A DNA stretch of 64,000 nucleotides from Roseibium alexandrii DFL-11 (GTDB lineage: Bacteria > Pseudomonadota > Alphaproteobacteria > Rhizobiales > Stappiaceae), in assembly GCF_000158095.2 (NCBI RefSeq), contig NZ_CM011002.1, positions 3,071,203 through 3,135,202 of the forward strand. The letters run 5' to 3'. The notes below the pieces were generated by a model that worked only from the letters and a program-made list of their open reading frames with translations, did no database searches and was not told the origin of the DNA. Positions 14,233 to 47,060 of the stretch are shown piece by piece; the first letter of the stretch is position 1; each line of letters starts with the position of its first letter. The position numbers and the translations under genes were made by a program.

Positions 14233-14235
14233 GGG

Positions 14236-15240: not shown

Positions 15241-15357
15241 TGTCTGATCCAATTGGCGAGAGGATCTGCGTGCCAACTGCTTTTCACTATCCGCTCCCGT
15301 GTTTCTCAAAAGACGAGAGTGAAGCGCGAAAAATATCAGGTCAATCGAAACATTAAA

Positions 15358-15368
15358 TCATGACAATT
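15358..15368. promoter_or_regulatory. Shared 11-mer upstream of eutB (candidate EnuR operator)
   Basis: TCATGACAATT occurs here, about 120 bases upstream of eutB and just after the enuR stop, and again at 16799-16809 in the enuR/asnC intergenic region. Two exact 11-base matches in the two intergenic regions of one regulon suggest a regulator site. Assignment to EnuR is inference. Confidence 0.4.
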
Positions 15369-15390
15369 TTAGCTTGATCACTTTACTTCT

Positions 15391-28845: not shown

Positions 28846-28874
28846 TTGATCATTCGCGTCTGCACAAATAGTCT
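28846..28874 (+). promoter_or_regulatory. Promoter of the first cobalamin riboswitch transcript
   Basis: TTGATC (28846-28851), 17-base spacer, TAGTCT (28869-28874). The predicted start near 28881 coincides with the first bases of the riboswitch, which supports the call. Confidence 0.5.
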
Positions 28875-28880
28875 GAGCGC

Positions 28881-29115
28881 TGATGGTTCCCGCGGAACGA
28901 AATCGCTGCGGGATGAAAAGGGAACACTGTGAGGAAGAGCCGCAAGGGCGCCTAATCCGTGACTGCCCCCGCAACTGTGAGCGGAGAGCGACCCCGAACG
29001 ACGCCACTGGGCCCATGATCGCATGGCCCGGGAAGGTACGGGAAAGCTTCGACCCGCGAGTCAGGAGACCTGCCATCGCAACCACAACAACCCGGGCGGG
29101 GTGTCCCGGAGGGAG
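28881..29115 (+). ncRNA. Cobalamin riboswitch 1 with expression platform
   Basis: Conserved parts of the AdoCbl aptamer are present in order: an early GGGAACAC element (28920-28927), GACTGCCCCCGCAACTGTGA (28961-28980), GCCACTGGG, GGGAAGG, and the B12 box GAGTCAGGAGACCTGCCAT (29058-29076). After the aptamer, CCGGG-CGGGGTGT-CCCGG followed by AGGGAG can hide the ribosome site of the ORF starting at 29122, which points to translational control. Downstream are two small coupled ORFs and a metal ABC transporter. Confidence 0.95.
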
Positions 29116-29300: not shown

Positions 29301-29434
29301 CCCGGCGCTCTGCTTCGAAAGAGCTTCCGGCAAGCCGATTTCCGTGCCTGACAGAAATGAGCCTGCCAGCCCTCATCGGCGGGGCTGCCGGTTTGTCTGC
29401 CATACTTTGGCTCGCAATTCTGGCGGTGCTTTGA
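29297..29434 (+). CDS. Small membrane protein ORF coupled to the metal ABC ATPase gene
   Basis: 45 residues. A basic N-terminus (MTRRSASKELPASRFPCL) is followed by one predicted membrane helix, roughly residues 24-45 (LIGGAAGLSAILWLAILAVL). It starts within the ATGA overlap with the previous ORF and ends in a TGATG overlap with the ABC ATPase start at 29434, so it lies inside a continuously coupled chain. It is not CbtB-like, as no histidine-rich tail is seen. It could be a small accessory subunit of the transporter. Not recognised. Confidence 0.55.
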   Translation: MTRRSASKELPASRFPCLTEMSLPALIGGAAGLSAILWLAILAVL

Positions 29435-30192
29435 TGACCGCAGTTGTTGAAATCCGGAATCTTGCTCTGGGATATCCCGAGCTGACGTTGTTCAAGCATT
29501 TGTCTTTGGACATTCAGGCCGGAACCACCCTGGCGGTGCTTGGCGCGAACGGCTCGGGCAAGAGCACCTTCGTCAAGATGCTGCTTGGGTTAATGGATCC
29601 CCTTGCCGGCCGTGTCACTTGGCCGGCCGGGCGTCCGCAGGAAGTCGGCTATCTGGCACAATTGACCGAATTTGACCGCAGGTTCCCGATCCGGGTCCGG
29701 GATCTGGCAGCCATGGGCGCCTGGCGCGGGTTTGGCCTTTGGTCAGGCCTTGGCCGCACGGGGCGGAACCGGGTGGCCGCAGCGCTTGAGGAGGCCGGCA
29801 TTCTGGATCTGGCAGACCGATCGCTGCACACGCTGTCCGGCGGGCAGCTGCAGCGGGCCCTGTTTGCGCGCGTGATCCTGCAGGACGCCCCCTTGGTCCT
29901 GCTCGATGAACCTTTTGCTGCGGTTGACCAAAGCACCGAAGCGCACCTCCTTTCAATCATCGATCGCTGGCGCGCCGAAGGCAGGGCGGTCGTGCTTGTT
30001 GTGCATGACCTGTCCTCCGTTCTCGATCACTGCAGCCATGCAGTTCTTCTGGGGGGTGGCATGGCAGCTCAGGGGACGGTCGACGAGGTTTTGACGCCGG
30101 GCCGCCTCGTTGCCCAGGGGTACATGTCCGAAAGCCAGGCCTCTTGGATGTTCCGGGGCAACTCCCAACAGCGGGAGGCTGCCTATGTTTGA
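29434..30192 (+). CDS. Metal ABC transporter ATPase (ZnuC/MntB family), riboswitch-controlled
   Basis: 252 residues. Walker A is LGANGSGKST, the signature is LSGGQLQRALFARV, Walker B is LVLLDEPFAAVD, and the H-loop is VVHDLSS. The family is the ATPase of Zn/Mn/Fe-type importers. The start at 29434 (MTAVVEIRNL) overlaps the stop of the small membrane ORF. The permease gene starts 8 bases before this gene ends. Because the operon follows a cobalamin riboswitch, cobalt is a likely cargo; zinc or manganese cannot be excluded. Confidence 0.88.
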   Translation: MTAVVEIRNLALGYPELTLFKHLSLDIQAGTTLAVLGANGSGKSTFVKMLLGLMDPLAGRVTWPAGRPQEVGYLAQLTEFDRRFPIRVRDLAAMGAWRGFGLWSGLGRTGRNRVAAALEEAGILDLADRSLHTLSGGQLQRALFARVILQDAPLVLLDEPFAAVDQSTEAHLLSIIDRWRAEGRAVVLVVHDLSSVLDHCSHAVLLGGGMAAQGTVDEVLTPGRLVAQGYMSESQASWMFRGNSQQREAAYV

Positions 30193-31087
30193 GCTTATTG
30201 CGGAGATGTGGGACTTCGCCTTCATGCGGCGGGCCTTTGTCGCGACCACCGTACTTTCGGCCTCTGTTGCCCCGATCGGAGCGTTTTTGGTCCTGCGGCG
30301 GTTGTCGCTTGCCGGAGAAGCCATGGCGCATGCGATCACGCCCGGCATCGTCATCGGGTTTGTCACCGCCGGTTTGTCTGTGGTGTCCCTGCTGGTCGGA
30401 GGGCTCGTCGCAGGTGTCGGCGTTGCGATCCTGACTGCTCTTCTTGCGCGCAAGACAATTCTGCGCAGCGATGCCAGTCTGGCTTCCCTTTATCTTATCG
30501 CCCTGGCTGCCGGGATCTTCATTCTGTCGGCGGCCGGATCCGCCGTACCGCTGAAGAGCTTTCTGTTCGGCTCCATCCTCGGGATTGACGACGCGTCGAT
30601 GATGCTCGTCGGCGGTGTTGCGACCGTGACCCTGATCGCCTTTGCTATCCTGCTGCGCCCCCTCATTGTCAGCACCTGCGATCCGATCTTCTTCGAGGCC
30701 CAGACCCGGCGGCCCTGGCTGGTCGACCAGGGGTTCATGCTGCTTCTGGTGCTGAACCTGCTTGCCGCCTTCAAGACGCTCGGAACGTTGATGGCTGTCG
30801 GCTTGATGATCCTGCCGGCGACAGCTGCCCGCTATTGGGCAAGCACGATTACCGGCCAGCTGGTGCTGGGCTTTGTCTTTGCCCTTGCCAGCTGCTGGAT
30901 CGGCCTCACCCTGTCCTACCTGTTTCCCGAGACCCCGTCGGGGCCTGCCATCGTCCTGGTGGCTGGCGGCTTCTTCCTGATTTCGGCCCTGTTCGGACCG
31001 CTCGGCTTCGGCGCCCGCCTGCGCAAGCCGTCCCCCAAACCAACACATTCGCTCGAACAAACCTACATTGAAGAGAGAACTCAATGA
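30185..31087 (+). CDS. Metal ABC transporter permease (ZnuB/MntC family)
   Basis: 300 residues, ABC-3 family membrane protein with around eight hydrophobic segments. The family hallmark near the N-terminus, LVLRRLSLAGEAMAHAITPG, is present, as is the later FKTLGTLMAVGLMILPATAA. The start at 30185 (MFELIAEMWDF) overlaps the ATPase gene end by 8 bases; it overlaps the binding-protein gene by ATGA. It forms the inner-membrane path for the metal delivered by the TroA-like protein. Confidence 0.88.
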   Translation: MFELIAEMWDFAFMRRAFVATTVLSASVAPIGAFLVLRRLSLAGEAMAHAITPGIVIGFVTAGLSVVSLLVGGLVAGVGVAILTALLARKTILRSDASLASLYLIALAAGIFILSAAGSAVPLKSFLFGSILGIDDASMMLVGGVATVTLIAFAILLRPLIVSTCDPIFFEAQTRRPWLVDQGFMLLLVLNLLAAFKTLGTLMAVGLMILPATAARYWASTITGQLVLGFVFALASCWIGLTLSYLFPETPSGPAIVLVAGGFFLISALFGPLGFGARLRKPSPKPTHSLEQTYIEERTQ

Positions 31088-31980
31088 GCCTTTTGAAATC
31101 CCTGGCGGCCAGTATTGCGGCTACATCGCTCGCGTTTGTCACCTTGCCGGCTGCCGCACATGAAGATGTAAAGGTCGTCGCCAGCTTCTCGATCCTTGGC
31201 GACATGGTCGAGCAGGTGGTGGGCGATTATGCCAGCGTGACCACCATCGTCGGTCCCGATGCTGATGCCCACGTCTTTCAGCCGTCGGTCGCCGATGCGA
31301 AAGCGGTTGCGAAGGCCGATGTGATCTTCGTCAACGGCCTCGGCTTTGAAACCTGGTCGGACACTTTGATAAAGGAATCCGGCACGGAGGCAGCCGTCTT
31401 TGTGGCAACGGAAGGCGTCACCCCGGTGAAGGTCGACGGAGAAACCGATCCGCACGCCTGGAATTCTCTGACAAATGGCGCCATCTACGTGCGCAACATC
31501 GCCGATGCCATGGGCAAGGCCCTGCCCGAGCATGCCGATGACTTCACCGCAAACGCGGACGCCTACATTGCAAGGCTGGAAGCCCTCGACAAGGAAACCC
31601 GCAAGAAGCTTGCCGCACTTCCGGAAGACCGCCGCACAGTCGTCACGGCGCATGACGCCTTCGGCTATCTCGCCGACGCTTACGGACTAACCTTCCTCGC
31701 ACCGGTCGGCATCGACACCGAAGCCGAGCCGTCCGCGCGGAATCTTGCCGTGTTGATCACGCAGCTGAAAGAGCAAGGCGCTGCCGCCCTCTTCGTTGAA
31801 AACATCACCAGCCCGGCACTTGTCCAGCAGATCTCCGATGAAACCGGCATCGAAATCGGTGGACGTCTGTTCTCTGACGCCCTGTCGGAACGCGGCGGAC
31901 CTGCGACCAGCTACGAGGCCATGTTCCAGCACAATCTCGGCACACTGCTCGAGGCACTCGGCAAACAGAACGCAAGCTGA
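31084..31980 (+). CDS. Metal ABC transporter substrate-binding protein (TroA-like cluster A-I)
   Basis: 298 residues with signal peptide (MSLLKSLAASIAATSLAFVT, cleavage near PAAA-H). Likely metal ligands by family pattern are H63 (DADAHVFQP), H124 (DPHAWNS), H190 (TAHDAFGYL) and D265 (LFSDALS), the His/His/His/Asp set known from TroA. There is no histidine-rich loop of the ZnuA kind. It ends 15 bases before a stem-loop terminator. With a cobalamin riboswitch heading the operon, Co2+ is the best guess for the physiological ligand; the coordination set itself would also accept Zn or Mn. Confidence 0.88.
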   Translation: MSLLKSLAASIAATSLAFVTLPAAAHEDVKVVASFSILGDMVEQVVGDYASVTTIVGPDADAHVFQPSVADAKAVAKADVIFVNGLGFETWSDTLIKESGTEAAVFVATEGVTPVKVDGETDPHAWNSLTNGAIYVRNIADAMGKALPEHADDFTANADAYIARLEALDKETRKKLAALPEDRRTVVTAHDAFGYLADAYGLTFLAPVGIDTEAEPSARNLAVLITQLKEQGAAALFVENITSPALVQQISDETGIEIGGRLFSDALSERGGPATSYEAMFQHNLGTLLEALGKQNAS

Positions 31981-32052: not shown

Positions 32053-32081
32053 TTGACACGCTCCACATGGCAGGTGAGACT
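32053..32081 (+). promoter_or_regulatory. Promoter of the second cobalamin riboswitch transcript
   Basis: TTGACA (32053-32058), 17-base spacer, GAGACT (32076-32081). The -35 is consensus and the -10 weak. The predicted start near 32088 matches the beginning of the aptamer, as for riboswitch 1. Confidence 0.5.
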
Positions 32082-32087
32082 AATGAT

Positions 32088-32310
32088 GATGGTTCCCGGC
32101 GGTGACATGTTCACCTTGGGATGAATAGGGAATACGGTGCGGCGATGAATCCAATGCCAAATCCGTGACTGCCCCCGCAACTGTGAGCGGTGAGCAACCT
32201 TGAACTGGCCACTGGGAGATCCCGGGAAGGCTCAAGGAAGCTAAGACCCGCAAGTCAGGAGACCTGCCATCTTTCTGTAACTCAAACCCGGGCGGGGTGC
32301 TCCGGCGGAG
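32088..32310 (+). ncRNA. Cobalamin riboswitch 2 with expression platform
   Basis: Aptamer elements in order are ATAGGGAATACGGTG, GACTGCCCCCGCAACTGTGA (32167-32186), GGCCACTGGG, GGGAAGG, and the B12 box AAGTCAGGAGACCTGCCAT (32252-32270). The platform CCCGGGCGGGGTGCTCCGG followed by CGGAGAAGG closely resembles that of riboswitch 1 and can hide the ribosome site of the ORF at 32320. No known B12-regulated gene follows; the next large gene is mrpA, which has its own promoter. Confidence 0.94.
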
Positions 32311-32319
32311 AAGGACGAT

Positions 32320-32451
32320 ATGGTATTCGTAACCACAGGCCAGATGCCTGCATCCAACTCTGTTCCAGTTCATGCCCCGCACAGACGCGGAGGGCGTAAT
32401 GAACCGGAATACGACACAAGACATAGCCAGCAATCTTCTCAATTTGACTGA
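32320..32451 (+). CDS. Possible leader ORF directly after riboswitch 2
   Basis: 43 codons beginning MVFVTTGQMPASNSVPVHAP, with GGAGAAGG upstream inside the riboswitch platform. Like the leader ORF after riboswitch 1, it overlaps the next small ORF in another frame. No domain recognised. It could be a translated leader used to control the ORF at 32399. Confidence 0.35.
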   Translation: MVFVTTGQMPASNSVPVHAPHRRGGRNEPEYDTRHSQQSSQFD

Positions 32452-32620
32452 AAGCCTGAGCCAGCGTGCCCAAAGAGCCATGCGTCCCAACGGTGCGGGC
32501 GACCCTGAAGCCCTGGAAACGGCGCTACACGTGATCGCTTTTGCGCCCTCATCAGAGAGGACTGCAGAACCTGGGCAACCTTTGTTTAGCGGCCCCTCTT
32601 TGAGCAAGCGGACACGTTGA
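32399..32620 (+). CDS. Hypothetical small protein downstream of riboswitch 2
   Basis: 73 residues beginning MNRNTTQDIASNLLNLTESL and ending PSLSKRTR. A CGGAGGG ribosome site lies upstream of the ATG, mirroring small ORF 1 after riboswitch 1. An in-frame ATG at 32372 is an alternative start. The first half looks helical and soluble; no family recognised. It is the only sizeable frame that the second riboswitch could control before the mrp promoter. It may be a remnant of a larger B12-regulated gene. Confidence 0.45.
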   Translation: MNRNTTQDIASNLLNLTESLSQRAQRAMRPNGAGDPEALETALHVIAFAPSSERTAEPGQPLFSGPSLSKRTR

Positions 32621-32670
32621 GAGTGGCGAACAGGGTAATTCCACCGGTGCATAGTACCGTTGGAAATGCA

Positions 32671-32688
32671 TGTTCAGGTTTCCGAACA
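32671..32688. promoter_or_regulatory. Upstream dyad 1 of the mrp operon (candidate activator site)
   Basis: TGTTCAGGTTTCCGAACA is an 18-bp dyad with TGTTC/GAACA arms. Its centre is about -120 from the predicted sigma-54 start at 32800. It is a near reverse complement of dyad 2. Confidence 0.65.
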
Positions 32689-32703
32689 TGAACTTGGAAA
32701 AGG

Positions 32704-32721
32704 TGTTCGGAAGCCTGAACA
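32704..32721. promoter_or_regulatory. Upstream dyad 2 of the mrp operon (candidate activator site)
   Basis: TGTTCGGAAGCCTGAACA is the second 18-bp dyad with the same arms, centred about -87. Its centre is 33 bp, or about three helical turns, from dyad 1, suitable for cooperative binding of an enhancer-binding protein. A further GAACA half-site follows at 32731. Confidence 0.65.
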
Positions 32722-32773
32722 CTGCCAACAGAACACCACTAGTAACTTATTGACTTTAAATAATAAGGCCGAA

Positions 32774-32789
32774 TGGCACTGCAATTGCA
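32774..32789 (+). promoter_or_regulatory. Sigma-54 promoter of the mrp operon
   Basis: TGGCAC (32774-32779), five bases, TTGCA (32785-32789) is a full match to the -24/-12 consensus with correct spacing. The predicted transcription start is near 32800, 23 bases before the mrpA start codon, with the ribosome site GAGGT between. Two dyads stand at enhancer distance upstream. Confidence 0.75.
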
Positions 32790-32822
32790 AACGTCGGAGA
32801 GACGATCAATTGAGGTGCCAAC

Positions 32823-35744
32823 ATGTTTTCAAACACGCTTGATAGCTCTGCTATCGCCAGCTGGATGCCCGGAGAGGCCATTCCAAGCTTGCTGGTGATC
32901 GCTTTTCTAGGTGCTGCGCTCAGCTTCCTGGTCCTGCCGCGGCTCGGCAAATCTGCCGGCCCTGTCGCAGCATTGTTGCCTGCAGGCCTGTTTGCGGCGT
33001 TCATGACCTATGTGCCTGTCATGGCGTATGGCGAGGGCGTCCCGACGATCCTACAGACTGTGCAATGGGTTCCGTCGCTGGGCATCAACTTCGATGTGCG
33101 CTTGGACGGCTTTTCGCTGTTGTTCGCCTTGATGATCACAGGCATCGGGTCCCTGGTGGTTCTCTACGCAGGATCCTATTTCGCCGAAAAACCTGCGGAC
33201 GACCGGGGACGCTTCCTAAGCTACATCCTCCTGTTCATGTCTGCGATGCTCGGCACTGTTCTGTCCGACAACGTGATCGTGATGTTCGTCTTCTGGGAAA
33301 TGACGAGCCTCTTGTCCTTCCTTCTCATCGGCTTCAATTCCACCTCGATTGAAGCACGCAAGGCAGCACTGCAGTCACTGGTGATCACCGCCGGTGGCGG
33401 CTTGGCGCTGTTCGGCGGTCTGCTCATCATGGGTATGGAAGCCGGCACCTTCTCTTTGCTTGAAATCACGAGCAACCCGGGAGTTGTGACTGACAGCACA
33501 TGGTTCGGCGTTATTGCCGCCCTGGTCCTGATCGGTGCCTTCACCAAGTCCGCGCAGTTCCCGTTTCATTTCTGGCTGCCGAATGCAATGCAGGCGCCGA
33601 CACCGGCATCCGCTTATCTCCATTCTGCGACAATGGTGAAGCTGGGCATCTTCTTGCTGGCCCGGTTCGACCCCATCTTGAGCGCCTCGCCGACCGTGAT
33701 CGTAATCATGGTTGCCGTTGGCCTGACCACGATGCTGGTTGCCGCACTGATGGCGCTTCGGGCTGATGGTTTGAAAGCCATTCTTGCGTATTCGACAGTG
33801 GCCTCCCTTGGTCTTCTGGTGACGCTTATCGGCCTTCAGGGTCCAGGAAGCTCCATCGGCATCGCCGGGTTTATTCTCGCCCACTCGCTCTACAAAGCCG
33901 CGCTGTTCTTCTGCGCAGGCATTGTCATTCACGCGACCGGAGCGACGCGGGTCCGCGATCTCGGTGCACTCTTCGGCCTTCTGCCGCTGACCGCAATCGC
34001 GGCGATTCTCGCCAGTTTGTCGATGGCCGGCCTGCCCCCATTCGTTGGGTTCATCGCCAAGGAATATGTCCTCGAGGCCAAACTCGACTCTTCCTTTGCG
34101 GCCATCGTGACGTTTGTTGCAGTGCTGGTGAACTCGGTGTTGGTCGCAATTGCGGGTATCTTTGCGCTTCGTCCGTTCTTCGGCAAAGCCACGGCCTTTA
34201 CTGAAAAGCCGAAACATGGCGAAACGATCGGGATGACAACCGGACCGGTTGTTCTGGCAGCCCTCGGCGTATTCTTCGGCCTGTTCGCGGACATCCCGCA
34301 GTACTTCATTGTCGGGCCGGCTGCTGTCGCCCTGCAGGGTGCTCCGTTCTATGTGTCCTTCGAGCTGTGGCATGGCATCACACCGATGCTTGGCCTGTCC
34401 GCTCTGGTTGTTCTGATTGGTGGCCTTCTGGTCTGGAAATGGACACCGATCCATGAGGCCATGCTGCGCCTGTCGTTCATCGACCGCTTTTCCTTCGAGA
34501 AGGGCTATGACGCGATATTCGGCGGTCTCCTTAGCCTTGCGCAGAGCACAACACGCACGATCCAGAACGGTCAGATGCGGACCTATGTCGCCGTGACCAT
34601 TGCCGTGGTAACGGGTGCTCTGGTCTATGCAGTGCTCGCCGGTGAAACCTTTGCCGGAGCTGCCGGCCTCACATTGCCGCCACTCGCTGCCGACGAAATC
34701 CGGCCGTATCTCCTGATCGTTTGTACGCTCATCGCACTAGGGGGCATCGTTGCGGCGGTCTCCCGCTCGATGGTCGTCTCGCTCGTCGGTGTGGGTCTGT
34801 CTGGCTATGGCATTGCATTGGTCTTCCTGAAAAACGGCGCACCTGACCTGGCTCTGACACAGTTCCTTGTCGAGACACTTCTGGTCGTCATCGTCTCTGC
34901 GGTCCTAGTCAAGATGCCGGCGATTGCCGATGGCCTGCGCAGCTATTCCAAGTTCGACCTGCGGATCGGGGACGCGCTGTTGTCGACTGTCTTTGCCGGT
35001 GCACTGTTTGTCGTGCTCCTGTCGATTGCGGCCAAGCCGTTCAATCCGGCAGTCACCGAATACTACGCCGTCACAAGCCTGTCTGAAGCGTTCGGCCGCA
35101 ACGTGGTCAACGTGATCCTGGTCGACTTCCGCGCGCTGGACACGCTCGGAGAGATTGCCGTTGTTGCATTCGCAGCCATCGCAGCCTGGGCGGTCCTGAC
35201 CGGCGGCAATCCACCATCGAAGACCCCAAAGGCTGGCGTTGCGACAAACCGCGCTGTGCCGTCTTTGATCTTCGAAACGACTGCACGGATGTTCTTCTTC
35301 CTGATGCTCATTGTGTCGGTCTGGGTGCTGTTCCGCGGTCACAACGAGCCGGGCGGCGGGTTCATTGGTGGTTTGATTGCCTCAGCAGGGTTTGCAGTGC
35401 TCGCACTGGCCTTGGGCGTCGACTTCGCACGCCGGAGACTGCTCCTGCATCCAATCGCCTGGATGGGTATCGGTCTGACGCTGGCCATCCTGTCCGGTGT
35501 CCCGGGCGCCATCATCAACGAGTCGTTCCTGACGCACCAATGGATCAATCTAAACCTCGGCGTGACCTCATTGAAGCTTGGCACCACCTATCTTTTCGAC
35601 ATTGGCGTCTACCTGACAGTGATCGGCGGCGTTCTCGCCTTCCTCATTCGAGTTCAACAGCAAAACAGTGGCGGCGATGACGCCACCACTGCAGCTGACG
35701 ATGTCACGAAATCCAACATCTCAACTCAAGGAGCGTCGGCATGA
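32823..35744 (+). CDS. mrpA: Mrp Na+/H+ antiporter subunits A and B, fused
   Basis: 973 residues, inner-membrane protein. Residues 1 to about 790 are MrpA, related to the NuoL subunit of complex I (FVFWEMTSLLSFLLIGFNST; FPFHFWLPNAMQAPTPASAY; DUF4040-like part around LVFLKNGAPDLALTQFLVET). Residues about 825-950 are an MrpB domain (FRGHNEPGGGFIGGLIASAG). Fusion of A and B is known from rhizobial Pha systems (group 2 Mrp). The start at 32823 has GAGGT eight bases upstream. First gene of a six-gene operon with overlapping junctions; predicted to be driven by the sigma-54 promoter at 32774. Confidence 0.95.
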   Translation: MFSNTLDSSAIASWMPGEAIPSLLVIAFLGAALSFLVLPRLGKSAGPVAALLPAGLFAAFMTYVPVMAYGEGVPTILQTVQWVPSLGINFDVRLDGFSLLFALMITGIGSLVVLYAGSYFAEKPADDRGRFLSYILLFMSAMLGTVLSDNVIVMFVFWEMTSLLSFLLIGFNSTSIEARKAALQSLVITAGGGLALFGGLLIMGMEAGTFSLLEITSNPGVVTDSTWFGVIAALVLIGAFTKSAQFPFHFWLPNAMQAPTPASAYLHSATMVKLGIFLLARFDPILSASPTVIVIMVAVGLTTMLVAALMALRADGLKAILAYSTVASLGLLVTLIGLQGPGSSIGIAGFILAHSLYKAALFFCAGIVIHATGATRVRDLGALFGLLPLTAIAAILASLSMAGLPPFVGFIAKEYVLEAKLDSSFAAIVTFVAVLVNSVLVAIAGIFALRPFFGKATAFTEKPKHGETIGMTTGPVVLAALGVFFGLFADIPQYFIVGPAAVALQGAPFYVSFELWHGITPMLGLSALVVLIGGLLVWKWTPIHEAMLRLSFIDRFSFEKGYDAIFGGLLSLAQSTTRTIQNGQMRTYVAVTIAVVTGALVYAVLAGETFAGAAGLTLPPLAADEIRPYLLIVCTLIALGGIVAAVSRSMVVSLVGVGLSGYGIALVFLKNGAPDLALTQFLVETLLVVIVSAVLVKMPAIADGLRSYSKFDLRIGDALLSTVFAGALFVVLLSIAAKPFNPAVTEYYAVTSLSEAFGRNVVNVILVDFRALDTLGEIAVVAFAAIAAWAVLTGGNPPSKTPKAGVATNRAVPSLIFETTARMFFFLMLIVSVWVLFRGHNEPGGGFIGGLIASAGFAVLALALGVDFARRRLLLHPIAWMGIGLTLAILSGVPGAIINESFLTHQWINLNLGVTSLKLGTTYLFDIGVYLTVIGGVLAFLIRVQQQNSGGDDATTAADDVTKSNISTQGASA

Positions 35745-36130
35745 TCTACGTTTATGCGGCTACCATCGTCATCGTTGCAGGAGCTGGGATCTACATGATT
35801 CTTGCACAGAACATCGTGCGGATCATTTTGGGCGTCGCCCTGCTCGCCGCCTCGGCCAACCTGCTGATCTTCCTGTCCGGCCGGCTTGGCTCGGTCACGC
35901 CGCCGATCATCCGGCAAGATGCGGAAGTGTTGGGCAGTTATGCCGCCAATCCACTGCCGCAAGCCCTGGTACTGACGGCGATTGTGATTGGCTTTGCTCT
36001 CACCGCCTATGCCGTCGCGCTCGCCGTGAAAGGCTACAAGTCGCTGGGCACCATGGATACGAGCCAGATGCATGACGCAGAAGAACTCGGATCGCCGTTC
36101 GCAGCAAAATCAGCACCAAAACAAGGCTGA
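35741..36130 (+). CDS. mrpC: Mrp antiporter subunit C
   Basis: 129 residues, NuoK-like subunit with three membrane helices (IYVYAATIVIVAGAGIYMIL; IILGVALLAASANLLIFLSG; ALVLTAIVIGFALTAYAVAL). The conserved segment DPLPQALVLTAIVIGFA of the family appears here as NPLPQALVLTAIVIG. It overlaps mrpAB by ATGA and ends 5 bases before mrpD. Part of the proton/sodium exchange complex. Confidence 0.94.
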   Translation: MIYVYAATIVIVAGAGIYMILAQNIVRIILGVALLAASANLLIFLSGRLGSVTPPIIRQDAEVLGSYAANPLPQALVLTAIVIGFALTAYAVALAVKGYKSLGTMDTSQMHDAEELGSPFAAKSAPKQG

Positions 36131-36135: not shown

Positions 36136-37677
36136 ATGACAGAAACATCATACAATCTGCTTGTTCTCGCCTTTCCGGTGCTGGTTCCGCTGACACTTGC
36201 AGCGATCACAGCAATCCTCTGGCGCAACATTCAGGCCCAGCGCGTTGTCGCGATTGCCGGCCTTGGCGTGATCGTGGTCTGCTCGGTCCTGCTCACAATG
36301 GCCGTGCTTCGCTACGACATCCTTGCCGTTGAATTCGGCTCGTGGGCCGTGCCATTTGGCATCTCCTTTGTGGCTGACCGCTTCGCAGCGGCTCTGGTCA
36401 TGATCACGGGTGTTCTTGCGTTCTGTGTAGGCATCTTCAGCCTACGGGATATGCGCCAGATCCACATGCGTGCAGGTTTCTACCCGCTCTTCTTCGGCAT
36501 GGTCGCCGGGGTGAACGGGGCGTTCCTGACCGGAGATCTGTTCAATCTCTATGTCTGGTTCGAGGTGATGCTCATTACGTCACTCGGCCTGCTGGTGATT
36601 GGCCGCACGAAAGCGCAGATCGACGGCGCGATTAAATACGCGCTGCTGAACCTCCTCGGCACGGTCTTGTTCCTGATGGCCATCGGCTTGCTCTATGGGG
36701 CTGCCGGCACGTTGGCATTCGCCGACCTTGCGCGGGTCCTGCCAACGCTTGAGCCGACACCTGGCCTGGTTGGAGCAGCGATCCTGTTCCTGTGTGCCTT
36801 TGGCATCAAGGCAGGCGTGTTTCCGCTGTTCTTCTGGCTTCCGGCCAGCTACCACACAGCACCCTTCACAATTTCTGCGATCTTTGCAGGTCTACTCACC
36901 AAGGTCGGCGTCTACGCGGCATTCCGCGTGTTCACGCTGCTGTTCACAGTCGAGGAGTCGGGGATCCGCGAAATCGTCGCCGTTGTTGCAGCACTCACCA
37001 TGGTGACCGGGGTGTTCGGAGCCGCAGTCCAGTGGAACATCCGTCGGATTCTGTCGTTCCACATCATCTCGCAGATTGGCTACATCCTGATGGGCCTTGC
37101 GATCGCCACACCTTTGGCCATCGCAGGTGCGGTATTCTACATCGTTCACCACATCATCGTGAAAGCCAATTTGTTCCTGCTGGCCGGTGCCATTCGTCAG
37201 GCAAGCGGGACGGACGACCTGAAGAAATCTGGCGGCCTCCTGAAAAGCCACCCGTGGCTGGCGGTGCTCTTTCTAATTCCCGCCCTGTCGCTGGCAGGGT
37301 TGCCGCCGCTGTCGGGTTTCTGGGCTAAGTTCCTCGTCGTTGACGCCTCGTTCAAGGGCGACATGGCGTGGCTGGCAGCCGTTGCCCTGTTTACCGGTCT
37401 GTTGACGCTCTACTCCATGACAAAGATCTGGATGGAAGCATTCTGGAAAGCACCGGGCATCGAGCGTTCTCAAACGCGTCCGGTCCCTGTCCTGATGGTC
37501 GCTCCAATCGCCGTTCTGGGTGCGATCACGCTCACAATTGGCTTTTACGCCGAACCGTTCGTTCAGTTCGCGGAGAAAGCCTCCATCACACTCACGCAAC
37601 CGGATGTCTACATCGCAGCCTTCTTCGGTGAAGAGACCCAAGTTGGTGAAGCTGCTCTTGAAAGGATCGACCAATGA
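36136..37677 (+). CDS. mrpD: Mrp antiporter subunit D
   Basis: 513 residues, NuoM/NuoN-like antiporter subunit with about 14 membrane segments. Characteristic parts are FNLYVWFEVMLITSLGLLVI, KAGVFPLFFWLPASYHTAPF, and the lysine-containing HIIVKANLFLLAGAI. It lies between mrpC (5 bases) and mrpE (ATGA overlap). With MrpA it should form the two ion-translocating units of the complex. Confidence 0.95.
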   Translation: MTETSYNLLVLAFPVLVPLTLAAITAILWRNIQAQRVVAIAGLGVIVVCSVLLTMAVLRYDILAVEFGSWAVPFGISFVADRFAAALVMITGVLAFCVGIFSLRDMRQIHMRAGFYPLFFGMVAGVNGAFLTGDLFNLYVWFEVMLITSLGLLVIGRTKAQIDGAIKYALLNLLGTVLFLMAIGLLYGAAGTLAFADLARVLPTLEPTPGLVGAAILFLCAFGIKAGVFPLFFWLPASYHTAPFTISAIFAGLLTKVGVYAAFRVFTLLFTVEESGIREIVAVVAALTMVTGVFGAAVQWNIRRILSFHIISQIGYILMGLAIATPLAIAGAVFYIVHHIIVKANLFLLAGAIRQASGTDDLKKSGGLLKSHPWLAVLFLIPALSLAGLPPLSGFWAKFLVVDASFKGDMAWLAAVALFTGLLTLYSMTKIWMEAFWKAPGIERSQTRPVPVLMVAPIAVLGAITLTIGFYAEPFVQFAEKASITLTQPDVYIAAFFGEETQVGEAALERIDQ

Positions 37678-38054
37678 TTAGCCTTTTAAAGCGTTTGGGC
37701 GCCTTCGGCCTTCTGTGCGGCGTCTTTATCATCGAGCTGGTAAAAGCCTCAGTGGACGTGACGGTCGCCGTCTTGTCCAACAAGCAGAAATTGAAGCCAG
37801 CCATTGTTGCGGTCCCGCTCGACCTGCGGACAGACATGGGGATTACCACCCTTGCGAACATCGTGAGCCTGACACCGGGAACCACCTCGCTGCACATCTC
37901 AGATGACCGCAAGACGCTCTACGTCCATGTCCTGGACCGGGAAAGCGACGAGGACGTGATCCGTTCCATCAAAGATACGTTTGAAACCCGCGTTCGGGCT
38001 GTCGAGGGACCGGCTCCCAGCGAAACTGTAGCCAAGAAAGGAGCCGTCGCATGA
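37674..38054 (+). CDS. mrpE: Mrp antiporter subunit E
   Basis: 126 residues. An N-terminal membrane part (RLGAFGLLCGVFIIELVKAS) is followed by a cytoplasmic domain (TLANIVSLTPGTTSLHISDD; LYVHVLDRESDEDVI) typical of MrpE. This is shorter than the roughly 160 residues of many MrpE proteins, lacking one of the early helices. It overlaps mrpD and mrpF by ATGA junctions. Confidence 0.92.
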   Translation: MISLLKRLGAFGLLCGVFIIELVKASVDVTVAVLSNKQKLKPAIVAVPLDLRTDMGITTLANIVSLTPGTTSLHISDDRKTLYVHVLDRESDEDVIRSIKDTFETRVRAVEGPAPSETVAKKGAVA

Positions 38055-38407
38055 GCATTGAGAGCATTCTGGGTATTTCTGAGACCCTCAACACGGTTCT
38101 GGTGCTGTTGATCATCGGCGCTTTCGCACTCACCGCCTTGCGTCTCATGAAGGGCCCGAGTTATGCGGACCGGTTTGTCGCCATCGATATGCTGACGGGT
38201 CTAGCCGTGGCCGCATGCGCCTTGACCGCGCTGACGACCGGCCGGTCAGAATTCCTTGACGTGGCGTTTGCGCTGGCCCTGATCGCCTTTGTCGCAACTG
38301 CAGCCTTTGCGGCTTTCCTGGAACGCAAGGTTGCTGTCACCGATGGCCACTTCAGGGACAATGGCAAACAAAAAGCTACTAAATCCGCGCAGCAGGAGGC
38401 ATCGTGA
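38051..38407 (+). CDS. mrpF: Mrp antiporter subunit F
   Basis: 118 residues, three membrane helices (TVLVLLIIGAFALTALRLMK; IDMLTGLAVAACALTALTTG; ALALIAFVATAAFAAFLERK). The family RLxxGPsxaDR pattern is present as RLMKGPSYADRFVAIDM. Its stop overlaps the mrpG start (TGATG), so the small subunits are made in a coupled series. Confidence 0.93.
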   Translation: MSIESILGISETLNTVLVLLIIGAFALTALRLMKGPSYADRFVAIDMLTGLAVAACALTALTTGRSEFLDVAFALALIAFVATAAFAAFLERKVAVTDGHFRDNGKQKATKSAQQEAS

Positions 38408-39684
38408 TGGTTGATCTTATTGCCCTTTTGGTGAAATTCGTTGGCGTAGGCTTCTTGCTGATCGCAACGATCGGATTGCTGCGCTTTGACGATCCTTTCC
38501 AGCGGATGCACGCCGCAACGAAAGCGGGCACGCTGGGTGCAGGTCTGGTCCTGATCGGGACCATGCTGAGCAAATCCAGCTTGGATTCAACCATGATGGG
38601 CGGCATGACCTTGTTGTTCCTGATCCTGACGATTCCGGTCGCAAGCCATTTGCTGGCACGGGCGGCGTATCTTTCCGGCGCTGAACTGGCCGGGATCGGA
38701 GATGCGGACAACGCCTTGCGTGACGTCCTGAAAAGGCCAGAGCAGCCGATTGAAAAGCAGGCTGAACGCTTGGACCTGCAAGGAATGGCGGCCGCGGCTG
38801 AGACAGACATTGCAACAGAAGTGCCGGTGTCGGCGGATCCTGTGCTCTGCGATGCCGAAAAATTAGGTTTCGTATCCCTGAAAGATGTGGTTGCGCCTGA
38901 GCGCGTCCGCTTTGCAGCTGTTGGCGATGCCGCGCCAAAACTCGCGCGCCGCGCAGCAGAGTTTGCGGCCCGCACGGACCTCCCGCTCATCGCTGTTGTT
39001 GCTGTCGACACTGGATATGTGGATGCAACAGACAATAGCACCGAGACGATGCGGCTGATCCGCGACAAAGTCGGACATTGGCTGCCTGATCTGCGCTCGC
39101 TCTCAGACGATCTCGGCGTTTCAGTGGAGCTCGTCTACCAGGAAGGTGACGCGGCTGCATCAATGGCCGGTGTTGGCGACATGCGTGAGTTTCTAGTTCT
39201 GCCAACGGACGGATGGGCAGACCATGGTGTCGGCGTTGCAACCCCTCATGCCACCAAGCAACCCGACGGATTGCTGCGTGTTGCCAGCATGCACCCCGGG
39301 CCAACGCTTTATGCGGTCGATGTTCCAAGAGCCGGTCCCGTCACTGTGTTGTTCGATGGGTCTTATGACATCTGGCGCGCGCTTGATCTGGCGCTCGTCG
39401 AGCGACTTTGGACTGCGACAGAACTCCGGGTGTTTGGGTACGTTGACGCGGCCAGCCGGGCGGAAATTGAGCAACGTGCCGCCGATGCCAATACCCCTGT
39501 CGTCTTCGCCGACCCGGAACTAACCGCACCGGATGAAGCCTTGTTGCCGGAACAAATGGTCTCCGACGCTGTCGCAGTGATCCTTCCGGACCTGCCAAGA
39601 CCTCTGCGGACCCGTTGGTACGGGACTTTTTGGCAAGACAAGATCTCGCCAAATTGGCGGGGGGACGTTCTGGTTTGGACCTAG
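38407..39684 (+). CDS. mrpG: Mrp antiporter subunit G with long USP-like C-terminal extension
   Basis: 425 residues, whereas MrpG is normally about 100-130. Residues 1 to about 95 are a standard MrpG (FVGVGFLLIATIGLLRFDDP; MHAATKAGTLGAGLVLIGTM). A charged linker to about 160 leads to roughly 260 extra residues with an alternating strand/helix pattern. Segments such as VRFAAVGDAAPKLARRAAEF, then GVSVELVYQEGDAAASM and REFLVLPTDGWADHG, resemble one universal stress protein fold; VTVLFDGSYDIWRALDLALV begins a possible second. This part should be cytoplasmic. The start at 38407 is preferred over GTG at 38404. The frame is intact, so this is a genuine fusion. The USP resemblance is by eye. Confidence 0.85.
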   Translation: MVDLIALLVKFVGVGFLLIATIGLLRFDDPFQRMHAATKAGTLGAGLVLIGTMLSKSSLDSTMMGGMTLLFLILTIPVASHLLARAAYLSGAELAGIGDADNALRDVLKRPEQPIEKQAERLDLQGMAAAAETDIATEVPVSADPVLCDAEKLGFVSLKDVVAPERVRFAAVGDAAPKLARRAAEFAARTDLPLIAVVAVDTGYVDATDNSTETMRLIRDKVGHWLPDLRSLSDDLGVSVELVYQEGDAAASMAGVGDMREFLVLPTDGWADHGVGVATPHATKQPDGLLRVASMHPGPTLYAVDVPRAGPVTVLFDGSYDIWRALDLALVERLWTATELRVFGYVDAASRAEIEQRAADANTPVVFADPELTAPDEALLPEQMVSDAVAVILPDLPRPLRTRWYGTFWQDKISPNWRGDVLVWT

Positions 39685-39735: not shown

Positions 39736-39762
39736 GGGGATGGCGTCAGCGCCATCCCCGTT
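39736..39762 (+). terminator. Rho-independent terminator after mrpG
   Basis: GGGGATGGCG (39736-39745), loop TCAG, CGCCATCCCC (39750-39759), followed by GTTCTTT. A perfect 10-bp stem and a T-rich tail. It ends 17 bases before the histidine kinase start, so the kinase/regulator pair is either a separate unit or reads through. Confidence 0.85.
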
Positions 39763-39779: not shown

Positions 39780-41303
39780 ATGCCACCTGACGCACCTTCG
39801 GAACACCAGAATAAAACCGGCATGGCAGGACCGGGTGCAAAGAGACTGAGATCCTGGCCGTTGGTATGGCGGCTGCCGGTGGCTATGGCCTCGGTCGTTA
39901 TGCTGTTTGCTGTTGTGTTGACCATTTTTGGTTTGCAGGAGCTGGAACGCCGGGAAGCCGAGCTCCGCGTCGAAGTCGGCGGGGCATTTCTCGATACTTT
40001 GGCCGGACTGATCACACCAGCTGTTACCGCCGGCGCTCCGTTATCGGAAATTGAGGGCCTGCTGTCGGCATCTGCCCGGTTCAAACCCTCGTTGCGCAAC
40101 GAAGCTGTTGCCGTTTGTTGCCTGGCAGATGGGCCCATTTTGATGACATCCTCTTACCCGGATGATCCCACAAATGGAGCTAAACCGCGAACAACCGAGC
40201 TTGCTCTTGAAGACTGGCTCAACGCCAATCGCAGTCTGCCGCCAAACGAAGCCGCAATCCAAAATGTCGATGAGACAAACAAACAACTGATTGCGCAGTC
40301 TTTTCCCGTAAGTGATGGTTCAACGATCCTGCTTGGTGCAGCCTTTGATCTCGAATGGCAACGTTCCGAGCAAGAAGAACGACGCCGTGTGGCTCTTGCC
40401 GTGGACGTCGCGTTTTCTGTACTAGCGGCGATCCTCACGTTTTTTATCGCGCAACACAGCCTGCGCCCTATTGATGACCTCACCAAGGCTCTCGACGACG
40501 ATTCCTTTGACACGCAGACCGAGGTTGAACCAGCATCCGCGAACACGGAAATCGGCCGTTTGCAAAATGCGCTGAGAACCCGGGCCGAACTTCAGGCGCG
40601 GGCTGACGCGATCGCAAAAACAGAAAACAAACATGCGCGGGAGGCAACGCTGGCCCGCCTTGCAGCAGGGCTCGCACATGAGGTGCGCAATCCGCTTGCC
40701 GGGATGAGCGCGGCAACCTCGACCTTGCGCCGGTTTGGAGATGACAAAACTGTGCGGGAACAGACGATTGACCTGATCGACCGGGGCCTGCAAAGCATTG
40801 ATCATGTGGCGGCCAGCATGTTGTCGACCTACCGGCCACCTGAAGGCAACAGAGATCTCAAGCCCGACGACCTCAATGACCTGCGGACCTTGATCAACCC
40901 GAAAGTGCGCGCCAAACAGGTGGACTTGAGTTTTCAGTCGGAGCTCGCAGAAACCTACCCGGCCAGCGCGGAAGCCGTGCGCCAGATCGTGCTCAACCTG
41001 CTCTTAAATGCCATAGACGCCACTCCGGTTGGCAGTACCGTTGCCTTTGAGTCCAAGCTGATCGAAGAGCAACTCACCATCAAGGTCTCCGACAGCGGCC
41101 CCGGTCTTCCAGGAGAAGCCTTGAATGTCCTGACCGGCGGAACCACTCCGGAGAAACCACAGACGCGGCGCCTTGGACTTTGGCTGGTTCATCAACTGAT
41201 CGATGATGTGAATGGCCGGTTGGCGATTTCAACACGTCCGCAAAGCGGCACAGTGATCACCATCACCATTCCAAAACGCACCGACGAGGCGGAAAATGTC
41301 TGA
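39780..41303 (+). CDS. Membrane sensor histidine kinase, partner of the adjacent sigma-54 activator
   Basis: 507 residues. TM1 lies near 30-50 (VAMASVVMLFAVVLTIFGLQ). A sensor region outside the membrane extends to about 200, TM2 is near 205-230 (VAFSVLAAILTFFIAQ), and a HAMP-like linker follows. Then come HisKA with the H box LAAGLAHEVRNPLAG, N box NLLLNAIDA, and G box DSGPGLP. The last eight bases overlap the response regulator gene. Its place just after the mrp operon, together with a sigma-54 promoter before it, suggests it senses a condition met by the antiporter (pH, sodium or alkali stress); this is inference. Confidence 0.9.
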   Translation: MPPDAPSEHQNKTGMAGPGAKRLRSWPLVWRLPVAMASVVMLFAVVLTIFGLQELERREAELRVEVGGAFLDTLAGLITPAVTAGAPLSEIEGLLSASARFKPSLRNEAVAVCCLADGPILMTSSYPDDPTNGAKPRTTELALEDWLNANRSLPPNEAAIQNVDETNKQLIAQSFPVSDGSTILLGAAFDLEWQRSEQEERRRVALAVDVAFSVLAAILTFFIAQHSLRPIDDLTKALDDDSFDTQTEVEPASANTEIGRLQNALRTRAELQARADAIAKTENKHAREATLARLAAGLAHEVRNPLAGMSAATSTLRRFGDDKTVREQTIDLIDRGLQSIDHVAASMLSTYRPPEGNRDLKPDDLNDLRTLINPKVRAKQVDLSFQSELAETYPASAEAVRQIVLNLLLNAIDATPVGSTVAFESKLIEEQLTIKVSDSGPGLPGEALNVLTGGTTPEKPQTRRLGLWLVHQLIDDVNGRLAISTRPQSGTVITITIPKRTDEAENV

Positions 41304-42672
41304 ACTGATACTGTTGGTGGAAGACGATCCGGTCCTTGGCCCCTCCTTGCAACAACGGCTTGTTCTGGAAGGGTTTTCCGTCGTTCATGCCACCACACTG
41401 GCAGCCGCCCGCGAGTTTCTCGGCAAACGGGTTCCGAGCTTTGTTTTGTCGGACATCCGGTTGCCGGATGGGTCCGGCGCCGATTTGCTGCGAGAGGTTC
41501 TCAGCCAGCACGGCGCGGTCCCGATTGTTTATATGACAGCCTATGGTTCTGTAGATCAGGCCGTGGAACTCGTTCGCGATGGCGCCAGGGACTACCTTGC
41601 CAAACCCTTCAACCTGGATGAACTTGTCTGCCGCATTCAGGAGCTTTTGCTTCGCCCGCTTGCGCCGCAAGTGGATGACCCGTTCTCGACATTTGGTCTT
41701 TCTGCCTCCATGCGTGGCGTGCGCTCCATGCTGAACCGCTTGGCGGGGATTGATTTGCCCGTTCTGCTGATTGGAGAAACAGGCACCGGCAAGGAAATCG
41801 CAGCGCGGTATCTGCACGCCAAGAACGCTGCACAATCGCGCCCCTTTGAAGCTGTAAACTGTGGGCAGTTGTCGCCGGAGCTGGCTGATTCGACGCTTTT
41901 TGGGCACGAGAAAGGTGCCTTCACCAGCGCGCATGACCGGCGGATCGGGGTCTTGGAAAGCGTTGGCGAGGGGACGCTGCTTCTCGATGAAATCGGTGAC
42001 ACCGGCCCGGAACTTCAATTGAAGCTTTTGCGCGTGTTGCAGGAGCGGCAGTTCAGGCGGCTGGGTGCATCACAGGATCTTGCCTTCAAAGGCCGGCTTG
42101 TTTGCGCAACGAACCGTGATCTGGAGGAAGCGGTCAGAGACGGCGTGTTCCGGGAGGATCTCCTGTTTCGCATCAACGTTGTGACGATCCGCGTTCCGCC
42201 TTTGCGTGAGCGTCTGGAAGAAGTGGCGCCGCTCATCACTGCCTTTGCTGCAAACGCTGCGCAGCGCATGGGACTTGCTCCAATACCGGCCTCAGCTGCC
42301 GCAGTGTTAGCGGCAGAGCAGCATGATTGGCCGGGAAATGTCCGTGAACTCCGGAACCGTGTAGAACGCGCCGTCGCACTCGCGGGCGGCGCTGAGCTGA
42401 CGCCAGCCGATTTATTTCCGGAAAACGCTACTCGCCTCCTTCAGCCTGCGAGCCATGCTTCAGGCGGTCCAGAAACTGCTCAGTCAAGCAGCTCTATCGG
42501 GTTCCCTTCGTTGGCTGAAGTCCGGGATCAAGCAGAACGCACCCACATTTTACGCGCCCTTGATGAAACCGATGGCCGGTTGCAGGACGCAGCCAAGCTT
42601 TTGGATATCTCACGCACAACCTTATGGGAACGCATGCGCCGCCACGGCATCGACCGATCGACAGAGAGCTAG
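41296..42672 (+). CDS. NtrC-family response regulator (sigma-54 activator) with GAFTSA variant
   Basis: 458 residues. The receiver domain (LILLVEDDPVLG; acceptor aspartate in VLSDIRLPDGSG) leads to an AAA+ domain with Walker A GETGTGKE and Walker B LLLDEIGD. The C-terminal Fis-type helix-turn-helix (DAAKLLDISRTTLWERMRR) should bind DNA. The sigma-54 contact loop reads GAFTSA rather than GAFTGA. Substitutions in this loop often weaken sigma-54 activation, though some natural variants work. Best candidate regulator of the promoter at 32774 through the dyads at 32671 and 32704. Confidence 0.92.
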   Translation: MSELILLVEDDPVLGPSLQQRLVLEGFSVVHATTLAAAREFLGKRVPSFVLSDIRLPDGSGADLLREVLSQHGAVPIVYMTAYGSVDQAVELVRDGARDYLAKPFNLDELVCRIQELLLRPLAPQVDDPFSTFGLSASMRGVRSMLNRLAGIDLPVLLIGETGTGKEIAARYLHAKNAAQSRPFEAVNCGQLSPELADSTLFGHEKGAFTSAHDRRIGVLESVGEGTLLLDEIGDTGPELQLKLLRVLQERQFRRLGASQDLAFKGRLVCATNRDLEEAVRDGVFREDLLFRINVVTIRVPPLRERLEEVAPLITAFAANAAQRMGLAPIPASAAAVLAAEQHDWPGNVRELRNRVERAVALAGGAELTPADLFPENATRLLQPASHASGGPETAQSSSSIGFPSLAEVRDQAERTHILRALDETDGRLQDAAKLLDISRTTLWERMRRHGIDRSTES

Positions 42673-43185: not shown

Positions 43186-44667
43186 TCAAGTTGTCCTATC
43201 CGGCAATTGTATCTTGAAGCACGTTCCCGGCTGGTCACAGTCCAGCTCGATCACACCACCATGAGCCCTGAGCAGCTCTGCGACGATGGCAAGCCCCAAG
43301 CCGACACCGCCTGCTTTCGCGCCGCTGTGAAACGCCTTGAAGAGGCCTCTCTGCGTATTTTCGGGAATGCCCGGGCCAGTGTCATGCACTTCAATATGAA
43401 CGCAGTTCGCCTGTCGCTCCGCTGAAAGACTAATGCGCCGAACCAGCGTCCCATCCCGTTCCGCCTCAAGCGCCTGCACCGCATTGCGGGTCAGGTTCAA
43501 AAGCACACGGAAGATCTGTTCGGGATCCGCATCAACCTCGAGTGTTTCGCCAATCCGGTTTTCGAACTGAATGGTATCATGGTCGACGAGCCCCAGGACA
43601 TCAGCGACATCCTCCCCCACCCTGTGGAGCGCGATCAGCCGCCGTTGCGGAGCCCGTTCCTGGGCCTTGCCATAGGCCATGACCGCCTGCGTATACCCGA
43701 CCGCCCGATCGAGTGTTGCCAGGATCTTCGGTGCCAACCGGTTGACCGTTGGATCGGGCACATGTTCCAGCCGCTCCAAAAAAAGCTGCGCAGACGCCAG
43801 CAAATTTCGCAAATCGTGATTGATCTTGGACACGGCCAATCCAAGATCCGCCAGCCGCTGTTTTTGATGCAAGGCGCGAGAAAGGGCTTCCTCCATCGCC
43901 GCCAGACGAATTTCCGCATCGCCGAGTTCGTCGCGCCGCCCGGATACCTTTATGATCCGGGATCCATCTTCCGGGTTTTCGGCAAACTGCTCCATGGAAC
44001 GCGTCAACCGGCGCAAAGGGCGGATGAAAATGGCGCGCAGAGTGATATAGACCAACGCTGCGGTTATCCCGGAAATCACCAGCGACAGCGCCAGGATCCG
44101 GCCGGAAAACGCCAGCATTTCCTGTTGAAGAAGCGCGACCGGAAAGACAATATCAACACGTTCTGTATGGCCCATCTGACCCGCGGCGACTGCCCGCATG
44201 ACGCCGTCCCCGCGATAGGTCAGGATCGCAAAGCTGCCGAGGATCGAGGTCAACGGCGTGACTTCCGCCATGTCCACAACGAAATCGACCTGTGTCGGCA
44301 CATTGCTCATTGCGATCAACCGGCGCTGCGCGCCTTGATCCAGCGCGATGGCCACAGCACCCGTTGTTTTCAGAAGCTCTTCCTGCAGTCGCGGCGCAAG
44401 CGTGTTGGTTTCAGCAAGGACAGATGCAGCAACACCTGCCGTTGTCAGCCGGTCCATCAACCATGTGTTCCTAAAGTTCGCTATGGAGGGCACGTAAATA
44501 AGCACCTCGGCAATCATGACGAACACGACGGTCAAAAGAAGAAGTTTGCTGGACAGGCCGCCAAAACGATGACGCCCGAAACCCGGATCAAGTTCCGGGT
44601 TCGCAGCCGGACCCAATCCGTCTGCATCGGGTGTTGCAGTCCCCTTAGGGGTGCCCTCATGCTTCAT
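43186..44667 (-). CDS. Orphan membrane sensor histidine kinase (HDLRN-type H box)
   Basis: 493 residues. TM1 is near 42-62 (LLLLTVVFVMIAEVLIYVPS), with a periplasmic region to about 195. TM2 is near 197-215 (LALSLVISGITAALVYITLR), followed by HAMP. The H box is the less common SKINHDLRNLLASAQLF, followed by N box NLTRNAVQAL and G boxes DTGPGIP and GGVGLGLAI. No response regulator gene is adjacent on this strand; the neighbour on the other strand belongs to the pair at 39780. The start at 44667 (MKHEGTPKG) has GGAG upstream and is preferred over TTG at 44682. It may be cotranscribed with the reductase gene 50 bases upstream. Confidence 0.87.
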   Translation of the reverse strand: MKHEGTPKGTATPDADGLGPAANPELDPGFGRHRFGGLSSKLLLLTVVFVMIAEVLIYVPSIANFRNTWLMDRLTTAGVAASVLAETNTLAPRLQEELLKTTGAVAIALDQGAQRRLIAMSNVPTQVDFVVDMAEVTPLTSILGSFAILTYRGDGVMRAVAAGQMGHTERVDIVFPVALLQQEMLAFSGRILALSLVISGITAALVYITLRAIFIRPLRRLTRSMEQFAENPEDGSRIIKVSGRRDELGDAEIRLAAMEEALSRALHQKQRLADLGLAVSKINHDLRNLLASAQLFLERLEHVPDPTVNRLAPKILATLDRAVGYTQAVMAYGKAQERAPQRRLIALHRVGEDVADVLGLVDHDTIQFENRIGETLEVDADPEQIFRVLLNLTRNAVQALEAERDGTLVRRISLSAERQANCVHIEVHDTGPGIPENTQRGLFKAFHSGAKAGGVGLGLAIVAELLRAHGGVIELDCDQPGTCFKIQLPDRTT

Positions 44668-44717
44668 GACAGCTCCGTCCAACGATCACGGCAAGAGCCC
44701 ATTCAGCCCAATACATC

Positions 44718-46148: not shown

Positions 46149-46191
46149 GCACGGCTCCTGTCATGTTGGCATTGGAGGGGCAGTTTTTTGA

Positions 46192-46977: not shown

Positions 46978-47060
46978 TGCCTCCGCCTCATTGCCGCGCA
47001 TTGGCCAATCACTCCATTATCCCTATTTCCGCCGCTTTTGACCGGTAGTTGTGCCGATGT

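Follow-up and report, generated by a model that had tools for sequence, protein, structure and literature searches.

A predicted sigma-54 promoter, paired AioR-type operators, and an AioSR-like two-component pair at an mrp antiporter operon of Roseibium alexandrii DFL-11

RESULTS

Genes and predicted control elements of the mrp locus

We analyzed a 64,000-nucleotide stretch of the Roseibium alexandrii DFL-11 genome (contig NZ_CM011002.1, positions 3,071,203 to 3,135,202), here called the window, which contains an operon for an Mrp (CPA3) antiporter. A predicted sigma-54 promoter and two palindromic dyads precede the operon, and genes for a sensor histidine kinase and an NtrC-family activator follow it. 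An earlier note on the letters of this DNA had proposed a two-component, sigma-54-controlled Mrp system, and the conservation of the elements and the linkage of the pair described below support that proposal. We consider that mrp is probably a sigma-54 operon run by its own dedicated, AioSR-like two-component pair, and we put the probability of this reading at roughly 0.88. The source genome (G000) comprises 5.46 Mb in 3 contigs, and the nearest named loci are mostly those of Labrenzia.

All genes of the locus are on the forward strand. Family matches identified mrpA (32823 to 35744; 973 amino acids with a fused MrpB [MnhB] domain), mrpC (35741 to 36130), mrpD (36136 to 37677), mrpE (37674 to 38054), and mrpF (38051 to 38407). 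The last gene, mrpG (38404 to 39684), encodes a C-terminal extension of ~310 residues, the feature that marks out the loci compared in this work. As in other Mrp operons, subunits A(B) to G are encoded in order in one operon; however, this one differs in the conserved MrpG extension, in having its own two-component pair after the operon, and in the predicted sigma-54 promoter before it.

Sigma-54 promoters have the consensus TGGCAC-N5-TTGC, with GG and GC at -24 and -12. Upstream of mrpA, a motif scan found a -24 element (TGGCAC, 32774 to 32779, forward strand) and a -12 element (TTGCA, 32785 to 32789, forward strand), each without mismatches and conserved in related loci. Together with the TGCAA between them they form TGGCACTGCAATTGCA, a promoter of the GG/GC type and the only exact copy in the window, so that the full consensus match claimed in the earlier note holds. 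With at most one mismatch allowed, the pattern occurs at 3 places in the window versus 1.95 expected. Across the genome, TGGCAC-N5-TTGCW has 6 copies versus 5 for the reversed control; the match alone is thus within chance, its uniqueness was rejected as evidence, and the matter is decided by conservation. Transcription would start near 32800, giving a predicted leader of ~22 nucleotides with GAGG ahead of the ATG. The Sigma54_DBD family of RpoN has one match in the whole genome.

Paired palindromes, the predicted upstream activator sites of this promoter, were found by motif scan on the forward strand at 32671 to 32688 (distal, TGTTCAGGTTTCCGAACA) and 32704 to 32721 (proximal, TGTTCGGAAGCCTGAACA), and both are conserved in relatives. 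They are the only exact copies of TGTTC-N8-GAACA in the window, where 6 places match with at most one mismatch versus 2.12 expected. The proximal dyad is identical to the reverse complement of the distal one at 17 of 18 positions, a likeness that extends beyond the arms. It begins 70 bp before the -24 element, and the two dyads are spaced 33 bp apart. The earlier description of 18-bp dyads with TGTTC/GAACA arms at about -120 and -87, three helical turns apart, thus agrees with a start near 32800. The fuller dyad pattern YGTTCRGRNNYCYGAACR has exactly two copies in the genome, both at mrp; with up to one mismatch it is found at 5 places, compared with 7 for the reversed control.

The kinase gene (39780 to 41303, forward strand; family match) encodes a protein with two hydrophobic spans about 150 residues apart in the hydropathy profile, and the His of its AHEVRNPL motif is residue 300. 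The regulator gene (41296 to 42672, forward strand) encodes all three parts of an NtrC-family sigma-54 activator, namely, a receiver domain (Asp53), an AAA+ domain (Sigma54_activat), and a Fis-type helix-turn-helix (HTH) domain. The protein architecture is the same as in ZraSR, AtoSC, NtrBC, and other sigma-54 two-component systems, but the pair scores far below the cutoffs curated for these families. The boxes and targets of such systems are also unlike those of the pair in the window.

The pair indeed follows the operon, as the earlier note had it, past 95 bp and a terminator-like hairpin (39736 to 39759, forward strand) that has a 10-bp stem and a T-rich tail. Between mrpG and the kinase gene lie 95 bp in the window and in loci L082 to L084 and mostly ~20 to 110 bp elsewhere, depending on the choice of start. 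A short gap was rejected as a sign of cotranscription. A hairpin with a T-rich tail follows mrpG in 5 of 29 loci only (the window, L082 to L084, and L088), and a terminator at this place was rejected as a general feature.

No confident family was found for the MrpG extension. A faint Pfam match to Usp was obtained with three of eight members (best E value, 0.033), and there was a faint match in the PDB (E value, 0.081); comparison with the Usp proteins of the same genome by hhalign, with shallow alignments, gave nothing. A protein search limited to 8000 candidates returned 20 relatives, mostly close ones; more distant ones are among L089 to L114. A second Mrp operon in the same genome (L171; MrpD 41 to 45% identical) has neither a -24/-12 element nor a box upstream by the patterns used.

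Conservation of the promoter and operators across Mrp loci

Named genomes were scanned for MrpG with a full-length alignment, and the best 80 of 172 loci were kept, so that the ordinary set is only a part of such loci. The 80 comprised 33 loci with a full-length extended MrpG (L082 to L114) and 47 with an ordinary MrpG. The extended loci come from Labrenzia, Stappia, Devosia, Rhizobium, Acuticoccus, Salinarimonas, Aquibium, Aliihoeflea, Pararhizobium, Peteryoungia, Agrobacterium, Arsenicitalea, Pelagibacterium, Pannonibacter, Chelativorans, and Mesorhizobium and from less closely named records. The loci are not independent, several being close relatives. Because mrpA is partial in L088 and L126, these were omitted from the -24/-12 count, leaving 32 extended and 46 ordinary loci.

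The promoter and dyads that the earlier note expected upstream of mrpA in related loci are present there. A -24/-12 element matching at least 9 of 11 positions was found in 31 of the 32 extended loci versus none of the 46 ordinary ones, and in 5.3% and 5.2%, respectively, of the shuffled sequences. The operator consensus was derived from 12 loci and used for the whole set. When the best site had to match at least 14 of 16 positions and a partner 25 to 36 bp away at least 12 of 16, the operator pair was found in 28/32 extended loci against 0/46 ordinary loci (shuffles, 0/3200 and 0/4600).

The geometry was compared in 35 loci: 31 named extended loci, the window, L027, L065, and L066, with L112 omitted. 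Both sites match at least 12 of 16 positions in 34 of them; the spacing between sites is 30 to 33 bp in 31 of these 34 and 21, 35, and 62 bp in the remaining three. The proximal operator begins 69 to 71 bp before the -24 element in 31 of the 35. Among the 23 of these 35 rows that come from genomes other than those of the 12 consensus loci, 22 have both sites and all 23 have a promoter matching at least 9 of 11 positions (L112, with neither, having been dropped). An origin of the -24/-12 element and the dyads by chance, or as unrelated sequence, would fit the lack of genome enrichment of the -24/-12 pattern alone and of the dyad pattern at one mismatch. However, the conservation of sequence, position, and spacing across many genera, and the absence of both from the 46 ordinary loci, make this explanation extremely improbable.

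The kinase and regulator genes directly follow mrpG in 27 of the 31 assessable extended loci (of 33; L086 and L105 end too soon). L082, in which the regulator gene runs off the contig, is counted among the 27. None of the 47 ordinary loci, some of them on short contigs, has the pair directly after mrpG. The co-occurrence of the upstream elements with the pair and the extended MrpG is thus nearly strict. In Bordetella genomosp. 5 (L133), an AioSR-like pair (13919 to 16584) also lies ~3.6 kb past an ordinary mrp operon. Its regulator is 39 to 43% identical, and no AioX or AioBA match was found at that locus.

Relatives of the regulator were found in 12 of 87 genomes of the family, 29 of 397 of the order, and 1 of 385 of the class. 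G000, G008, G009, and G052 among the order matches were already known, and 20 further regions were taken from 19 others of the 29. The class-wide search used an E value of 1e-120 and matched only the genome of the window; given so strict a threshold, this result speaks only to the rarity of close relatives beyond the order. The regulator gene follows an mrp operon in 9 of the 12 family genomes; no mrp gene was found in the region around it in the other 3. The -24/-12 element is strict in seven of the nine family mrp loci and reads TGGCAT in two Stappia-type loci. Both palindromes are present as well, having drifted to GTCCGGA..TCCGGAC in Pannonibacter. A search with the palindrome-pair pattern, made independently of any protein, matched 10 of the 87 family genomes (reversed control, 3). 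Seven of the matches are mrp loci with the pair, one is an aio locus (G042), and the others are G014 and G071; the pattern missed mrp in G008 and G009 and aio in G052 and G012.

Relation to the AioS/AioR system of arsenite oxidation

The Mrp kinase and regulator are, by sequence, relatives of AioS and AioR, and the dyads are AioR-type boxes, a relationship that the earlier note had missed. The kinase and regulator of the window are 31% and 46% identical, respectively, to AioS and AioR of L073, a locus whose genes pass the curated cutoffs for the small and large subunits of arsenite oxidase. The 16-bp core of the distal dyad, read on the reverse strand, matches the published AioR motif without mismatches, and the proximal dyad has one mismatch. 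In published work, AioR was footprinted by DNase I on GTTCGGATTTCCGAAC, upstream of mcp, in Agrobacterium tumefaciens GW4 (PMC5335332), and the aioBA promoter of strain NT-26 is given as TGGCACAACGATTGCA (PMC6011840). In a third report, all 12 aioBA operons with aioXSR have two tandem palindromes and a -24/-12 element upstream, whereas those without aioXSR have no such palindromes or -24/-12 element (PMC3834237).

Eighteen regulator relatives without adjoining mrp genes are AioR, their loci having matches to aioX (18/18), aioB (17/18), and aioA (16/18). The same box pair lies behind aioR in 17 of the 18 aio loci in a count made by hand and then repeated (dimer shuffles, 3/3600), and a simple pattern, also counted by hand, placed a -24/-12 element at a fitting position in 10 of 18. 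In the regulator tree, 33 mrp rows and the 18 aio rows fall on opposite sides of one branch (support, 100/98), with the regulator of the window outside the AioR group; with a root on the long L133 branch, as the tree is drawn, the mrp and aio rows form sister groups. L062, with no mrp gene on its short contig, was assigned to the mrp rows ahead of tree building, and two pairs of rows (L063 and L088; L030 and L111) each share a genome. The tree and the shared box indicate that the Mrp regulator and AioR are close relatives and that their boxes are essentially the same.

The AioXSR-aioBA systems of A. tumefaciens 5A/GW4 and Rhizobium sp. strain NT-26 likewise combine an NtrC-family regulator with a membrane kinase. 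In them, as in the mrp system, a tandem pair of GTTCGGAnnTCCGAAC-type palindromes accompanies a TGGCAC-N5-TTGC promoter, in the common order palindrome, palindrome, -24/-12 element, target operon. The target, however, is aioBA there and mrp here, and in the mrp system the pair lies downstream of its target, with no adjoining AioX.

Because the box and promoter plan is common to mrp and aioBA, the boxes might instead serve AioR proper, with mrp as part of an arsenite regulon. This is very unlikely given that the mrp regulators form their own group in the tree and that arsenite oxidase (AioA) was found at an E value of 1e-40 in none of 14 genomes with an mrp-type regulator, although the positive control (G092) was found. 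The mrp genes were seen beside the regulator in 13 of these genomes, and G187 was placed by clade only. Nor did a scan of 43 mrp-type sequences, among them the entire window, find AioX at an E value of 1e-3; AioX-like matches elsewhere in 12 of the 14 genomes are only 26 to 33% identical. One weak AioA match (22%) was seen in L113. With no AioX beside mrp and no arsenite oxidase in any of the 14 genomes, the kinase would sense another stimulus or use an unlinked partner. Agrobacterium albertimagni AOL15 carries this mrp type (L102) and reportedly has an arsenic island (PMC3834237), so that both systems can share a cell.

Proposed regulation and points weighed against it

Under dedicated sigma-54 control, the membrane kinase would sense its stimulus, directly or through an unlinked partner, and phosphorylate the regulator at Asp53. 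Occupying both palindromes, which are separated by about three helical turns, regulator dimers would assemble an AAA+ ring, loop to the sigma-54 polymerase at 32774 to 32789, and open the promoter, so that transcription of mrpABCDEFG would begin at the predicted start. The role of such a circuit may be cation or pH homeostasis on demand.

Several observations weigh against dedicated sigma-54 control. The case for it is built on sequence and comparison. In the window lineage, the loop by which the activator would contact sigma-54 reads GAFTSA (41914 to 41931) in place of the usual GAFTGA. In L091 the kinase is present but the regulator frame stops after the receiver domain, and the regulator frame of Pannonibacter phragmitetus (L032/L109), in the present record, diverges past residue 385, ahead of the HTH domain. 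Two Salinarimonas loci, L092 and L093, keep the promoter and boxes without an adjacent pair; L091 and L092 are both in Salinarimonas rosea DSM 21201, and L092 could therefore be controlled only in trans. L112 has an extended MrpG without pair, boxes, or promoter. The stricter operator test was also missed by L094, L100, and L110, and L105 and L113 have a weaker -24/-12 element (9/11) with boxes ~33 bp further off. Upstream of mrpA in L092, three consecutive operator-like sites were seen, starting at -132, -103, and -70 from the -24 element.

The loop raises the alternative that the regulator of the window lineage binds the boxes but has lost the ability to open sigma-54 promoters well, most mrp transcription coming from a different promoter or from upstream read-through. 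The window has GAFTSA, as do both close relatives for which sequence of this motif is available, and a cobalamin riboswitch and a small open reading frame (ORF) lie upstream at 32073 to 32620. Among the 33 mrp-type rows, the loop is GAFTGA or GSFTGA in 27, GAFTSA in 4, and GAFTGS in 1 and was not found in 1. However, GAFTSA also occurs beyond the window lineage, in L103, which is of the mrp type, and in the AioR of L079, and a simple scan found no sigma-70-like promoter in 32250 to 32900. All 11 positions of the -24/-12 element, moreover, match in the window and in the three relatives nearest to it, which is not expected if the promoter is unused. We regard this alternative as very unlikely.

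Features flanking the locus

A cobalamin riboswitch (28867 to 29091, forward strand; 124.7 bits) lies upstream of genes for an ABC transporter with a ZnuA-type binding protein (29344 to 31980), which suggests a B12-controlled metal importer. The second cobalamin riboswitch (32073 to 32285, forward strand; 129.3 bits) follows the ZnuA-type gene and is itself followed by an 82-amino-acid ORF (32372 to 32620), of which three close relatives retain all or a part. An ORF on the opposite strand (32080 to 32652) overlaps this riboswitch and is probably not a gene. Behind the regulator gene, the reverse strand at 43186 to 47001 encodes a second histidine kinase, a pyridine-nucleotide disulfide oxidoreductase, and a VTT-domain membrane protein.

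DISCUSSION

Little seems to have been described about how Mrp antiporters are regulated. The earlier note knew of no established example of Mrp under sigma-54, and we found no paper describing one among the matches listed from an open-access collection, a scope that leaves out most subscription papers and does not prove novelty. In the available parts of PMC12516955, PMC2700814, PMC6754898, and PMC10149814, the searched words stand in unrelated places. No paper in that collection contains AioR and Mrp together as whole words, and the words promoter, sigma, and two-component are absent from the text of a 2017 Mrp review.

A promoter, an operator, a regulator, and a kinase are now defined by prediction in many culturable genera, and the signal that calls for Mrp thereby becomes testable. 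The AioSR family, known from arsenite oxidation, appears to have a branch with another target, and this branch helps the interpretation of AioR-like boxes in genomes without arsenite oxidase.

More speculatively, and with considerable doubt, AioSR-type signaling might be a wider family of envelope circuits in which arsenite oxidase is one specialized branch, and the Mrp branch might sense ionic or pH stress without AioX. The MrpG extension might then tie antiporter activity to the circuit, and in species with both systems, such as A. albertimagni AOL15, AioR and the Mrp regulator could act on common boxes, which would let arsenite induce mrp as well. A Na+:H+ antiporter is reportedly needed for arsenite oxidation; if the idea is true, arsenite-induced mrp would give that need a regulatory reason.

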